Source: Paramacrobiotus metropolitanus
Taxonomy: Eukaryota > Tardigrada > Eutardigrada > Parachela > Macrobiotidae
Direction of reading: 5' to 3'
DNA length: 64,000 nucleotides
Assembly (NCBI RefSeq): GCF_019649055.1
Contig: NW_026570241.1
Span: 124,001-188,000 of the forward strand
Shown here: positions 41,611 through 49,831 of the stretch, one piece after another
Layout: every line of letters starts with the position of its first letter
Position numbering within the stretch: position 1 is the stretch's first letter
The notes under the pieces: model-generated
Databases searched by the model: none
What the model was told of the DNA's origin: nothing
What the model saw: only the letters and a program-made list of their open reading frames with translations
Position numbers and translations under genes: made by a program

Positions 41611-43769
41611 TCAACCTGTACCCCTCACCGAGGTATATTTCTGAATAAGTAACTGCAGGGCACTCCGAGACAGCTTCTCCAAACGCAAATCTTTCAAGCC
41701 GTCCACGCACCACTTTTCTCGCGGTAATGCAACCACGGACGGGGATCGAGGGTGTGCGTCGCACACAATATCTGCAACGACAAAAGTGTGATCGCACTTG
41801 TTCCTGCTTTGTTCGCCGCTAATTATGCTGCTGGTCGTACTTTGCAAGCGCTTTGGATATTCTTATCATCCGATGCTGTTATTTCCATTGCCAACCACTT
41901 GGACAACCCTCGTAACTGCTCCAAATTCGGTTCTGGCAAACCCATCTCGAACAATTCCCACATAGCACTTTCACAGCATTGACCGACAACTGCACCGTGA
42001 TAATGCGAGTGCTAGCAGAACGGTGGTAGCCCATAATATTGGGCAGGTTGGCGTCAGTCAACCGGACACTGGAATCGATCCACTGGATCGCGTTGCACGG
42101 CAGACTGCAGCATGCCGCGGCGAAGTCATCGAGAAAAACATCATAATATTCAAGGTTTTGCTCGTCAGTTGCTGCAGTGTTGGGATAATGTAACATACAT
42201 TCGCTGGAATTGTTCGTGTACCGGGTGCCGATGAAGAACTTGCAATGTAATCCCACCAAATGGATCGTTTCCAGTCGTACTGATGGATCCTGCTGGGCAA
42301 CATGGTGTATCATGTCGAACACTTTCAACAGCTCCTGTTCGTTCACGGAACGCCAACGGCAGTCCACAATGATGCGTTTTGTGGACGCACTCAAGCACGT
42401 GAAAATCGGCGACAGCATGACGTAGCTTAGCCGATCAAAATTCTGCAGCGTTTTGTTTCCACAGGGCGTAACAATAATACAGGCAGTCAACAAGGAGGAA
42501 GCCAAGATTTCCATCCACGCAAAACAAACAGCACGCAAACATGTTTGCGTTATAGTGTCCAGACAGGAAAACACTTCCAGCCACAATTCCTGCGGCATTT
42601 CATTAAGAACGTTCGGGGTCTCCGTTTCCGAGGATGACCAATGCGGAATGGCAGTCACACGCAGAAGACGAGCAATTAGCGCTGCAAGAAAATCCTCACT
42701 AGTCTTTGCCTTCTTCTGCAAAAGCATGCCACTGTAACATACCACAAATAGTAATGTGTTTCTACCGATAATTTAAGAAGACTAAAAACTTTAACGGTGG
42801 TATTATTGCCGGTATATAGGAACTCTATTTTATTGAATCGTACCCGGTAGGAAAACAGCTGGAAATTATTCCAGAGAATGGCAGATAAAAGCAGGAAAAA
42901 CAGAATAAATGATGCTGAGAAAATAGAGATTTAAACAGAATTAATATTAGAAAAATAACAGAAAGGAGAAGAATCGCGTGAACGGAATATGCAACAGGTA
43001 CGATTTTTGAATTCTTACCAAGGCCGAGAGACGAAGTATTGGTCCTCCTTCTGACGGATGGCAACGTCGTATACACCACAGATGTCCATCAATAACATCC
43101 ACCAGAGAAATCGGCCACGTGCCGACGACACCATAAAACCATGAATCATTATCAAGGTACTGGCGCAGTTCATCCGCTTGGATCCAGGAGAATTGCTGCG
43201 GCAACAACACGCTGTACTTGGCTAACATCCCTTTTCTTACGCGTTGAGGCGGAGTACGCGGCTGCTTGCTTAAAGGATCTGAAGTGTGATACCACGGAGG
43301 GAACATGGGTGGTTCGGACCGATGTTCGGGCCGTTCAGCTGCGGCCCAACAACTCTTCGGCACTCTCCAGCGGATCCGCTCGATGGGAACGATATCCGTC
43401 CGCGTCTGCTCATTGCCCCAACGAACGACAGCCACATCGTACGAGAGATACCATTGACCACGAGCGACATCCACCATTTCTGCTGGAAACCACGTCCACG
43501 GTAAGCTTGGAGCCTCGCATCAACACTTCAACGGGGATGCTGGCGTACCGACCGCCGCAAACGTTGGCGACATCCTCGCCGGCAAGCCACCTTGAACCTT
43601 CGGAAAGGAAAACATCGCTATCAAAGGGATAAAACTGGCGCCGTCTGCCCGCACAGAGGAAGTCGACGAAGAACCCGTTGTCAGCCACATCCACGACGCG
43701 TCCGTAGCGAGTTATACCGTCGGTGTCCAGGACGTCAACGCTGTTCGGTTGATAGATTCCGCCAGACAT
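41611..43769 (-). CDS. F-box / leucine-rich protein with Tudor-like N-terminus, frame-disrupted
   Basis: Minus strand. The first exon runs from the ATG at 43769 to the donor at 43019 and begins VDVLDTDGITRYGRVVDVAD NGFFVDF (read with a space), a Tudor/PWWP-like barrel. The frame must shift once at about 43491-43499 to continue as WFPAEMVDVARGQWYLSYDV. The second exon, from 42715, joins in phase 0 and carries an F-box (EMPQELWLEVFSCLD) and leucine-rich-like sequence. Near 41985 coding continues in another frame (CCESAMWELFEMGLPEPNLE), ending at a donor at about 41835. A last block, 41611-41785, reads LKDLRLEKLSRSALQLLIQK. F-box proteins link substrates to Skp1-Cullin-1 ligases. Family members with this N-terminal module are unfamiliar outside this lineage. 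The frame shifts may mean pseudogene or assembly indels. Confidence 0.6.
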
Positions 43770-44679: not shown

Positions 44680-47600
44680 ATGTTGCCCAACGTGAGCCCA
44701 TCAATGTCTCGGATTGAGCCCCTCTCAGAATCTGGCGCAGATTCCTCTAAGAATGCCCGTTTGAAACACACCATCAGTGAAGGGTTTCTCCGTGAGTTAT
44801 ACGATTTGAAATCCACTGGCACACTGTGTGATGTGGTTTTGAAAGGATCGGAGGAAAGCGCAGCTGGCATTCCATGCCACCGTGTGGTCCTTTGCGCACA
44901 CAGCAGTTATTTTCGCACCATGTTCACGTCGGAGTGGAAGGAGAAGTACCAGGCAGAGGTCCAGCTGAAGAACATTCCCGGCGGCCCGCTGAGCGAGTAA
45001 GGGTTTGGTAGACACTGAAAGGCAGTTGATGTGTGTAATGCATGCACGATGCAGGTACCTTGGAGGCTTGGACATATGCCCCTTACCTATGCCCCGACAG
45101 CCTTTTGGCTTTTTAAAATCGTTGTGCGAAGCAGGTGCGCGCTCGATTTCCGTGCCGAAGCTGTCGTCAGAGCCCGCTACCCACGGGTGTTGCGCCAGAT
45201 TTTTTTCTCACTCACTTTAGTTAGTAGTTTTATTTCGCAATATTTATTTCCGAAATATCAGTTTGCATCCTACTTTTGTACTGTACATATTGTCATTTTC
45301 ATTCTTTCCTAATAGTTGGAGGTTGCCCTGAATGTTTATTACAACCTGAAATGGACTATCGTTTATCGTCTTACTGAAATTATCGCTGTGCCGAGGGAAC
45401 AGCTGTGGCAGAGATTTGCTCTACATGCAGTTTGTTACACGATCGGCTATCCGACTGCCACAAAGATACGCGGGACTTTACTGACTGTGCACTGCGCCAC
45501 TTTCATGTGGAATGGATTCCAACAAGGCACCGTGATATGCTCAGGATGAGCGTCGATTTCTCCATGTCGCCTATGCAACTGATATGAAAAGGTTAGGAAT
45601 GGCGAACTGTGAAGGTGGGCAGTTGATACAACCTGATGGTAGCTCACCTGTTTATGTGAAAACTTTTTTTGTTCCTATACTGTATTTGAGTTCTTTTTGG
45701 AAGTACTGTACAAGTTACATCATGCGAAGGCTATACTGGTCAATAAATATAGCTTTTTGCGTTATTTTCAGATACTCGGTGATTGTTCAATTGCTCAACT
45801 TGTACTCCCCGTGATGCTCGTATGAATTGGACTGCCAGAATCATCATGATGGACACATGTGCTGAACCAGTGCTCGGCAAAAACCCAATATCCCAAAGTT
45901 CTGCAAGCGCCTCGCACACCGCGGAGGTTTTATATGTGCTTTCCTAATTTGCACTCCGTCAAAATTTTTAGAACAACTTCGAGTTAAACCATTAACAGTA
46001 CCTGAATTCACCACATTAAATATTCAATTTTTGCACAGGAACCAGTTCAGTTACCATTTGTTTTGTTAACAGACAACTTATCGTGGCACGAAAAACTGCT
46101 TCTACACCGATCTCCGTCTACTAAATTCAGATACGCTAAATCAGTTATCAATGTGGTCCTGCGAAGACTCGGAACGGATTTGGAAGCCATGCAAAATCTC
46201 TTTATTGCTGTTACTTGTGGCGATACCGATAAGACTTGCTGTGTCGGCCTCAGAGGTTGCTCCAGTATTCGAGTAATCCGCTTTTCATTTTTGTACTTAA
46301 ATAAAACATTTTTAAAAATGAATGAAATCAGTTTTTTAACAAAAACATGGCAGAAGGTTGATTGCATTAAGATTTTGTTTTTTGCAGGTATCTGGGCGGG
46401 ATATGCCGATTAATCACGCAGTTGTCAGGTCATTCCGAGGAGCGAAGTTAAAAAATCTTCTGCCAATTGAAACGTGCTCTTTGGAAGAAGGCGAAATCTG
46501 CATCAATCCATACCACTATTACGAAGCCGCACCGGAGCGATGTCCAAGGATTGACGGTGGTACCCTTTGCGTTGTTTATGGATGCAGCAACCGGCCGAAC
46601 AAAGTTGCGGATATTTCGTTTTTTAAAGTTCCTAACAAGAGCGAAGACCAGCGCTATCGGGCATTCTTTGCCTTCTACGGCAGAAAAGACCTCGAAAAGA
46701 CGGGATTTCTAAAACATCACCGCATCTGCAGTCAGCATTTCCGTACAGACGACATTATTTGGACCTGATTGACGCCAAGATTATCCCTCTCTGCTGTGCC
46801 TACGGAACGGCCGGGATCGTCAAATCCGACTAAAATCATTCAACCTCCGCGCCGGCTGCTGAATCGACTGGCCGAAAATGAGCACCAACAGTTTTTCTCC
46901 TCAAAATTTTTCATGAAGTTGAAGAGCGCTGAATGTGATTCCGTAATCAACGAATGTGGATTCACTGTCTTGCAACGCTCTGACAACGACATTCTACTTG
47001 GGAAAATTTCTGTTATCGCGTCCACCCCGGAAACCGTTAATTATGATACCGTACTTGTGCGAATAGTGCCAGATGCAGCGCCAGCGTTTTTTATTAACGG
47101 TGTTCCGGTTGGTGACGAGTTGACAGATTATAATGGAAATGATGCAGTATCGAATGAGCGTTCGCTAAAGAAACTTCTGACATTTCGTTTTACGGATGTG
47201 AATGCTGTAACTCATACATAAATGTCGAATACATTCTTTTGCGCAAAACGTTTAATCTGTTGCTGAACAACTATGTTAATAATAAGCGTGACGATCTTTT
47301 TGATTTGAAATTTGGGAAGAAGCGGCCGGCAAAGATGTCTGAACAACCGGCGAAATTGGCAAAACTGAAGCAAAATAAAATAAAAAAACCTGAACGAATT
47401 ATGCCACAAAAAGGGAAAAACTTGAAAAGCACGCTAACTTCATGGAGACTGTAAAATGGATTCCATGCGCAGATAAATACTTCCGATTTATGGCGGCTAA
47501 GAAGTTCGGTCAGCGAAGGAGAAATGTTGTCTCCACTGCAGCGTTACACTAAAATTTTGCTTTAATAAATTGCATAAATAAAATGAATTAAAATTGAGTG

Positions 47601-49831
47601 CAGTCAAGTGAAAAGCAAGATTTTCGAATCTGGCGCAACACCCGTGGGTAGCGGGCTCTGACGACAGCTTCGGCACGGAAATCGAGCGCGCACCTGCTTC
47701 GCACAACGATTTTAAAAAGCCAAAAAGCTGTCGGGGCATAGGTAAGGGGCATATCTTGGACTGCTCTTGTCACTCTGCTCTGCAAAATTTACCAGTCTTG
47801 TGTTTGTTTCAGGCTGGTAAATTTTGCTTACACGATGGAAATCAGTATTCACGAACAGAATGTCCACAACGTCCTAACTGCAGCAATTTTCCTGGATATC
47901 ATCCCAGTGGCAAAAATGTGTTGGGAGTTCGTGGAAGATCACTTGGATGCCTCCAGCTGTTTGATGATTCACTGTCTGGCGGAAAAGCACAAAAATGGCG
48001 ACCTGACAGAGAAAGCTAAAGCCATGGTCCTTCGCCACTTCGTTCCCGTTTCACAGAGCGCAGATTTTTTACTGATAGACGCGCAGAAGGTAGTCATCAA
48101 TTAGTCGATCGCTTTTCCGGTTATGCAATCTGTATGTACAAAACTTGAACAAAACGCAGACTGCTGGTCGATGTATCATGTATGCGTTATCATGTTAGTG
48201 AGCCCATACAGAACAGCCAAACGACCGGCACGCATGGTATAACGAACCAGAAGAATACTCCCTTTTGGTTTCCTTTAGGTAGTCGAGCTGGTCGCATCGG
48301 ATGCACTGCATGTGGAGAAGGAGGACGAAGTGCTTCAAGCTGTCAAGCGTTGGTTTGATCACGATCCGGCTGGACGAAAAGCTCACTTTTCGGATATTCT
48401 GCAATTTATTCGGGTGACCTTTCTCGGTCCTCAATGTCTTGATGAGTATTTCTTGGCTCTGCTGAATAGCTTCATTACGACACCAGGCGCCGAATCGTCA
48501 GTTCGTTCCGGCAACATCAGTGAATTTCCGGGTCGAAGTGGAGAAGCAGCAGCTTCCCGATGTCGACCTAGAACATCATATGGTTCGAGATGCCTACGTT
48601 GCTTTCAATTTCTATATAGCACAGCTCCAAAAATCTGTCTGTTGATTTCTCAGGTTTGCCTAAAGTTATTGTATGCATTGGTGGCATTGATTAAGACGAG
48701 AATCATTTGGACGAAGTTCATATTTTCAGCCCCTCAATGTCGACAATAAGCTGTCTCAAACGACTGCCGATAGGTGTCGGACGCAGCGGTATAGCTGTAT
48801 TGGACGGAAACTTAGTCTATGCATGTGGAGGAATGTATATTACAGAAGACCTGGACACCCTGGACGTCACAGAGTTAGTCTGGCGATACAATCCAACCAC
48901 CAATGAGTGGCAGGAAGTAGCGCCAGTGCAAGTGCGGCGCTCGTGCCACGGTGTGGCGGCGCTCAACGGTCGCATTTATGCCGCAGGAGGATGTCATCTG
49001 GATGTTAATGATGAATTTACCAAGTTATCTTCGGTGGAATGCTTCGATCCACAGACAAACAGCTGGCAATTTGTGGCGGCCTTACCGGTTGCTCTGGACG
49101 ATGTTGCTATGGTAGCATTCAAGGACCGGCTGTATTTATTCGGAGGGGATTCAGGAGAGTCGGAGGCGGTACCAAGACTAAGCAATAAATTGTTCTGCTA
49201 CGACCCCGTATTGAACGCCTGGAGTGAGCTCGCCGATATGCCGACTGCTCGACGGTGGTGCTCTGCTTGTATCAGTCCGAGCGGACTGATTTACCTAATG
49301 GGTACGGAAAACCATAGGCCTATCACCTCTAAAATTTTATTTCATTATTTGTTAGGTGGAGATGTCGGTGAACCGGAGAAATGTGTGCGCTGTACAGAAG
49401 CCTACGATCCAGCGACTAATAAATGGCTGAAGAGGGGTTAATTAAGACTAACATTATTTAAGACCTGTGCTACGATTTACGTAATCCTGGTGGGTGTTTA
49501 ACTGTAAAGTATCCTTTTAGGAGATATGATCGAAAATCGTAGTACGTTTGCAAGCGCTTTTGTGGATGGGAAGATGTATGTTCTCGGGGGCTGCGTTAAT
49601 TATACGAGCGATTGTAGTAGCTCAGTTGAGTGGTACGACGAAGCTACGAACACATGGACCCTGCATGAAATCCGACTGCCAAAGGCAAAGAGTGGTTCTG
49701 GTTGCGCGGTCTTAACACTGAAGAGAGGTAGATTTTCCAGTGTCACTACATGTACAATGTCACCGTTTTTAATGCAGAACCTGACTCACCTAATAAAATT
49801 GCTGACTTTATTATTTAAATTGGTAAATTAA
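44680..49831 (+). CDS. BTB-kelch (KLHL-type) protein 2, kelch domain interrupted by a stop
   Basis: Exons 44680-44996 (BTB, intact start MLPNVSPSMS), 47813-48089, 48279-48582 (BACK), 48654-49436 and 49521-49831 (kelch). Splice phases match paralogue 1 throughout. BTB: TGTLCDVVLKGSEESAAG, CHRVVLCAHSSYFRTMFTSE. Kelch repeats: YACGGMYI, YAAGGCHL, YLFGGDSG, YVLGGCVN. A TAA at 48692-48694 falls where paralogue 1 has Met (GGID*DEN against GGIDMND), early in the first kelch blade. The protein would then be a BTB-BACK stub, or the gene is a pseudogene, or a base is wrong. A terminal exon conserved with paralogue 1 (MHLLDSRD) is visible at about 50026-50052, but its acceptor has lost a base. Intron 1 is 2.8 kb, against 116 bp in paralogue 1, because of a transposon. 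Confidence 0.7.
45074..45201 (+). repeat. Left terminal inverted repeat
   Basis: 128 bp, starts ATATGCCCCTTACCTATGCC and ends GTTGCGCCAGATT. Pairs with 47627-47754. Confidence 0.92.
46073..46768 (+). CDS. MH1 (SMAD DNA-binding)-THAP zinc-finger fusion protein encoded by the transposon
   Basis: Two exons: 46073-46272 and 46388-46768, joined in phase 0 (ATTCGA|GTAATC...TTTGCAG|GTATCT); upstream exons are not resolved. Exon 1 gives AKSVINVVLRRLGTDLEAMQ and DKTCCVGLRGCSSIR. Exon 2 continues VSGRDMPINHAVV, IETCSLEEGEICINPYHYYE. This matches the SMAD MH1 domain, and all four zinc ligands (Cys, Cys, Cys, and His of NPYHY) are in place. About ten residues later a THAP domain starts: LCVVYGCSNRP, ISFFKVP, HRICSQHF, the C2CH set. 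A TGA at 46766-46768 ends this frame inside the THAP domain. The same frame stays open directly after it and contains the AVPT motif that normally closes THAP. Predicted role: sequence-specific DNA binding, either to transposon ends or to host SMAD-type sites. No MH2 domain is seen. Confidence 0.8.
46769..47221 (+). CDS. In-frame continuation of the MH1-THAP protein after the TGA
   Basis: 150 codons in the same frame immediately after the TGA at 46766-46768. It begins LTPRLSLSAVPTERPG, where AVPT fits the C-terminal THAP motif, so the block belongs to the same ancestral protein. The rest (NRLAENEHQQFFSSKFFMK, later ISVIASTPETVNYDTVLVRI) matches no family I know. It could be translated by readthrough or splicing, or be the dead 3' part of an inactivated gene. 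A lysine-rich frame (47239-47454) follows in another frame, near the right inverted repeat. Confidence 0.5.
   Translation: MTPRLSLSAVPTERPGSSNPTKIIQPPRRLLNRLAENEHQQFFSSKFFMKLKSAECDSVINECGFTVLQRSDNDILLGKISVIASTPETVNYDTVLVRIVPDAAPAFFINGVPVGDELTDYNGNDAVSNERSLKKLLTFRFTDVNAVTHT
47627..47754 (-). repeat. Right terminal inverted repeat
   Basis: 128 bp, reverse complement of 45074-45201. Followed directly by CTTGGAC, the target-site duplication. Confidence 0.92.

Follow-up and report, generated by a model that had tools for sequence, protein, structure and literature searches.

A transposon copy within a BTB-Kelch gene

The window, a stretch of 64,000 nucleotides from the genome of the eutardigrade Paramacrobiotus metropolitanus, carries at positions 45074-47754 an element of 2,681 bp with 128-bp terminal inverted repeats (TIRs), flanked by a 7-bp target site duplication (CTTGGAC). 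Its insertion site, read by eye, is an intron of a BTB-Kelch gene. This region is an internally deleted, defective and non-autonomous copy of a P-superfamily DNA transposon, not a whole gene. The following parts were recognised:

45067-45073 (unstranded): left target site duplication CTTGGAC, 7 bp, identical to 47755-47761
45074-45201 (+): left TIR, 128 bp, starting ATATGCCCCTTACCTATGCCCC, 99% complementary to 47627-47754
46073-46272 (+): exon with the N-terminal half of MH1 and the first zinc-ligand Cys, in KTCC; Pfam MH1 match in the spliced protein, donor gtaatc at 46273
46273-46387 (+): phase-0 intron within MH1, at the SMAD4 intron position; GT-AG, gtaatc...ttttgcag
46388-46519 (+): C-terminal half of MH1, zinc ligands in ETC, EIC and NPYHY; Pfam MH1 match in the spliced protein, ligand alignment
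46568-46804 (+): THAP domain, C2CH, broken by an in-frame TGA at 46766-46768; Pfam THAP match
46769-47214 (+): remnant of the stretch from THAP to the transposase core; 90% amino acid identity to the C370 open frame
47206-47428 (+): remnant of the transposase C terminus; match to a C370 stretch
47627-47754 (-): right TIR, 128 bp, 99% complementary to 45074-45201
47755-47761 (unstranded): right target site duplication CTTGGAC, 7 bp, identical to the left copy

The second exon (46388-46765, +) carries THAP as well as the C-terminal half of MH1, and the TGA that ends it closes the frame within the C-terminal part of THAP, a region whose frame is open in the relatives C370 and C5. Beyond this codon, 46769-47221 continues the transposase frame seen in intact relatives, with a dN/dS of 0.17 between the window and C370 over the 46769-47214 remnant. 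The window copy is 91% identical over MH1-THAP to the 5,983-bp C370 relative, compared with which it is short of approximately 0.4 kb of 5' sequence and 2.7 kb of transposase. Two stretches of the query (159-1315 and 1307-1529) align to C370 stretches about 2.7 kb apart, and the transposase core of about that length is gone from the window copy at a deletion junction near 47206-47214. The in-frame TGA and the absent transposase core thus make this copy defective. A genome search found 18 ends related to the window TIR. Among neighbouring features read by eye, the BTB-Kelch gene that hosts the transposon extends over 44683-49720 (+), and an F-box-like stretch (QELWLEVFSCLDTITQTCLRAVCFAW) lies in an open frame at 41879-42772 (-).

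MH1 and THAP in one protein

The first-pass annotation of this DNA proposed that a SMAD MH1 domain and a THAP zinc finger are joined in a single protein. Pfam scores of the spliced window protein lie above the curated cut-offs for both domains (MH1, E 9.4e-9, 35.9 bits, cut-off 25; THAP, E 3.4e-10, 41 bits, cut-off 23.9), which bears this out. The four MH1 zinc ligands that it listed are likewise all present, that of KTCC being the second Cys as judged from the C370 and C5 copies, and the THAP C2CH is intact. In the alignment, the Cys-Cys-Cys-His site is invariant across elements, SMADs and the PRDM-type genes described below. The two domains do lie close together, but about 16 residues, not 10, separate NPYHY from the first THAP Cys, and within 46073-47221 the frame is closed by the TGA inside THAP. 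Exon models were drawn by eye, and GT-AG sites, frame and conservation suggest that the first MH1 exon is spliced as modelled. The fusion itself is independent of splicing, since a single exon carries THAP and the C-terminal half of MH1 in one frame.

A family of mobile elements with two lineages

We searched one genome, a 170-Mb assembly, in which copy counts are lower bounds. A protein search gave relatives on C17, C155, C99, C20, C29, C89 and C1, several of them already present in an earlier set of 24 genomic MH1 matches; relatives in viral contigs were sought and none was found. At least 11 loci, window included, carry MH1 in elements of this lineage. Intact copies encode MH1, THAP and a P-type transposase; in C370 and C5, MH1 is placed ahead of a single long frame that encodes THAP as well as a P-type HTH and a TNP-like RNaseH N-terminal domain. 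The suggestion that an element had captured a host MH1 is borne out by this association of MH1 with THAP and a P-type transposase at no fewer than 11 loci, and the search for further MH1-THAP loci that accompanied it yields at least 10 besides the window in this eutardigrade genome. On C17 we also observed a very large THAP cluster (G000:C17:1208000-1407000) in which single open frames hold several THAPs (at least six in one of 1310 aa near 1348663-1351251), apparently encoding tandem multi-THAP proteins.

The elements fall into two lineages, approximately 30% identical within MH1. Lineage A, to which the window copy belongs, comprises elements in which no C4 finger was found, a nuclear-receptor finger having been sought upstream of the lineage A MH1. 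In lineage B such a finger precedes MH1 (C99, C89, C20, C29, C1:2056284 and C33), and GT-AG sites joining its two halves were verified in C99, C20 and C1. In C99 and C20, respectively, Pfam matches were obtained for zf-C4 (4.8e-10 and 1.3e-11), MH1 (3e-11 and 1.2e-11; 43.9 and 45.1 bits, cut-off 25) and THAP (3.5e-7 and 7.7e-9). The double treble-clef finger has its full set of eight Cys, spaced as in nuclear receptors. In contrast to nuclear receptors, however, the P-box is unusual (CVPCK, CIPCK, CDSCR) and the finger is fused to MH1; no ligand-binding domain was found in the lineage B frames scanned. The C33 locus (L086, G000:C33:875304-880753) is a further lineage B element, which retains the C4 finger and MH1 exon 1, followed by an internal deletion leading to the transposase C terminus.

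Exact 7-bp target duplications flank not only the window copy but also C370 (AGTCAAC), C5 (GTTACGG), C29 (ATATTAC), C99 (CTGTAAC), C89 (GTGTCGC) and a 624-bp derivative on C125 (GTTTGAT); in C20 the match is 6/7. The C20 element (5,716 bp, with 94-bp perfect repeats) is 99% identical to the C29 copy, with different flanks and sites. Furthermore, C89 is an internally deleted version of C99, and numerous short derivatives, roughly 500-550 bp long, are delimited by lineage B ends. Next to the C5 element, nested inverted repeats (L054:1410-2121; 228-nt arms, 79%) possibly represent another short transposon.

These observations weigh on two alternative readings of the loci. That MH1 and THAP are exons of adjacent but separate genes, or a chance match, could be argued from the separate exon of the first half of MH1. 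Yet the other half shares exon and frame with THAP in all copies, the same arrangement recurs at 11 loci or more, and both domains score over their Pfam cut-offs. The conservation of this shared exon already refutes the reading, which we find almost inconceivable. Membership of a host multigene family instead of mobility could be envisaged for loci such as C17, C155 and C1:2056284, which are among those lacking mapped boundaries. Against it stand the long inverted repeats and 7-bp duplications, the nearly identical C20 and C29 copies in different flanks, and the internally deleted copies and short derivatives. For bounded copies it is already refuted, and overall we regard it as extremely improbable.

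The elements belong with P-superfamily transposons (Drosophila P, Galileo, zebrafish THAP9 elements), with which they share THAP, a P-type HTH, a TNP-like RNaseH N-terminal domain, terminal inverted repeats and internally deleted non-autonomous copies. Pfam THAP was matched on the N-terminal side of the transposase in the window, C370, C5, C99 and C20. TNP-like_RNaseH_N reached approximately 1e-8 in C5 and C370, above cut-off, and the Tnp_P_element HTH 1.5e-4 and 4e-4, just below its own cut-off; the Pfam GTP-binding and RNaseH C-terminal models gave no match in the 3' exons tested, and the candidate acidic motifs (ICDVT/ISDQT, SDHGAEN/SDNGAEN, SDPIE) were picked by eye only. The TIRs and 7-bp duplications of bounded copies fit the 7-8 bp of the superfamily, long repeats with 7-bp duplications being Galileo-like (PMC3573991, PMC3688188); in Drosophila P and zebrafish elements the duplications are of 8 bp (PMC7776569). 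What sets the tardigrade elements apart from these transposons is the MH1 that precedes THAP, joined in lineage B by a C4 finger of nuclear-receptor type. The catalytic domains of lineages A and B form one clade (100/99), separate from our controls, MH1-less P-like elements with THAP from the same genome. Thus, one capture of MH1 before the A/B split would suffice.

Origin of the element MH1

Known MH1 domains occur in the SMAD and NFI families of transcription factors. We compared 12 loci from lineages A and B and from the PRDM-type genes; in every one, a GT-AG intron splits MH1 at the same position and in the same phase. An intron at precisely this position (between GRLQ and VAG) is present in the host SMAD4 genes of C2 and C3. 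In the R-SMADs on C4 and C34 the intron lies 9 codons later, in the C14 SMAD it lies earlier, and the C12 SMAD has none. With some 300 possible positions (100 codons, three phases), a chance coincidence of the site is unlikely. Additionally, the A3 profile matches SMAD4 best among solved structures (5nm9/3qsv, approximately 1e-16; R-SMADs, approximately 1e-13). SMAD4 is also the best fold match of the modelled element MH1, a supporting and not an independent result, since the alignment contained host SMADs and the C5 intron is translated in frame within the model. In the MH1 tree, a 100/99 branch separates elements and PRDM-type genes from all SMADs. (C3 also carries clustered SAHS genes, a eutardigrade hallmark.)

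Given the common intron position and phase together with the best match, we infer that MH1 was taken as genomic DNA from a SMAD4-type gene, either directly or through a host MH1-THAP-PRDM gene. The element domain resembles that of SMAD4 in fold, in its four zinc ligands, in top sequence match and in intron position and phase. In contrast, it is attached to a transposase, the Arg81, Gln83 and Lys88 contacts are replaced, and the hairpin loop is partly deleted. No MH2 domain was found in the long element frames, where Pfam scans showed THAP and transposase.

Host MH1-THAP-PRDM genes

A second MH1-THAP association exists outside transposons. Two paralogous host-like genes encode, on one strand, MH1 followed by THAP, a PRDM2-type PR/SET domain and C2H2 fingers:

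G000:C12:1810500-1818353 (-), L077/L021: C12 PRDM-type gene, from the domain order on one strand
G000:C166:64100-72033 (-), L078/L024: C166 PRDM-type gene, from the domain order on one strand

Their PR domains score 1.2e-21 (C12) and 4.3e-18 (C166), and THAP is a Pfam match in C12 and was recognised by eye in C166. Order, strand and the existence of two paralogs suggest that each locus is a single gene. Both may be the host-side counterpart of the element fusion. Host-transposase fusion genes likewise join host regulatory and transposase-type DNA-binding domains; here, however, a still-mobile transposon bears the host domains.

Could the transposons then have taken a ready-made MH1-THAP unit from a host MH1-THAP-PR/SET-C2H2 gene, or a host gene have fused with the MH1-THAP of a transposon? 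In both C12 and C166, THAP comes after an MH1 that has the same intron, and this MH1 groups with that of the elements (100/99 from SMADs; with lineage A, 93/91). But in the THAP tree their THAPs are distant from those of the elements, the spacing between the two domains is much longer, and constraining the elements to one clade was not rejected (AU p 0.08), so that we judge such an exchange possible but on the whole unlikely. A different source altogether would be a zinc fold of separate origin, for instance one left over from a His-Me finger endonuclease; it is suggested by the common ancestry that MH1 is thought to have with His-Me finger nucleases. Kolobok-type elements bearing such an endonuclease are known (PMC9587614). 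Since the element MH1 matches SMAD4 best, has its intron at the SMAD4 position and phase, and carries CINPYHY and FRW motifs, we find this origin very hard to credit. A P-superfamily cut-and-paste transposon with a SMAD4-type MH1, captured intron included and placed ahead of THAP, of which the window holds a defective copy, is the explanation that we consider highly probable.

Selection and DNA specificity of the captured domain

Between C20 and C1:2056284, dN/dS is 0.20 for MH1 and 0.19 for THAP; between the window and C370 the values are 0.36 and 0.12. These ratios indicate purifying selection on the element MH1. In R-SMADs and SMAD4 the base contacts Arg81, Gln83 and Lys88 are strictly conserved (PMC5727232). 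The corresponding residues are S/R/D in the window (lineage A) and S/K/E in C99 (lineage B), and GTCT, GGCGC and GGCCG show no excess in the element terminal repeats. The first-pass annotation had envisaged binding to SMAD-type GTCT or GC sites; with the base contacts replaced in both lineages and element ends without SMAD sites, such specificity finds no support. MH1 has thus been retained, though probably not for SMAD-type sequence, and its predicted role is most likely that of an added binding module of the transposase, which may read element ends, targets or a partner protein.

The architecture proposed for lineage A is MH1, THAP, linker/HTH and an RNaseH-type catalytic domain, and for lineage B a nuclear-receptor C4 finger, MH1, THAP, linker and an RNaseH-type domain. 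In this scheme MH1, with the C4 finger in lineage B, would give the transposase an additional, zinc-stabilised binding module, and together with THAP it might recognise the element ends or contribute to the choice of target site, its specificity presumably having shifted away from that of SMADs.

Implications

Our literature search, of partial coverage, returned no report that describes MH1 together with THAP or a transposase with a nuclear-receptor finger. The best-known traffic runs from transposase to host transcription factor. These elements show that a transposon can acquire the DNA-binding domain of a host transcription factor as genomic DNA and retain it under selection. In a broader and rather doubtful scenario, this transposon lineage repeatedly took domains of host signalling transcription factors (the SMAD4 MH1, the nuclear-receptor finger), reads host regulatory DNA or chromatin for insertion, and returned MH1-THAP to PRDM-type genes. 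In which direction domains were exchanged, and for what role, can be tested with lineages A and B, the nuclear-receptor finger and the MH1-THAP-PRDM genes, and a captured MH1 devoid of the SMAD base contacts would offer a natural test of how MH1 specificity changes.
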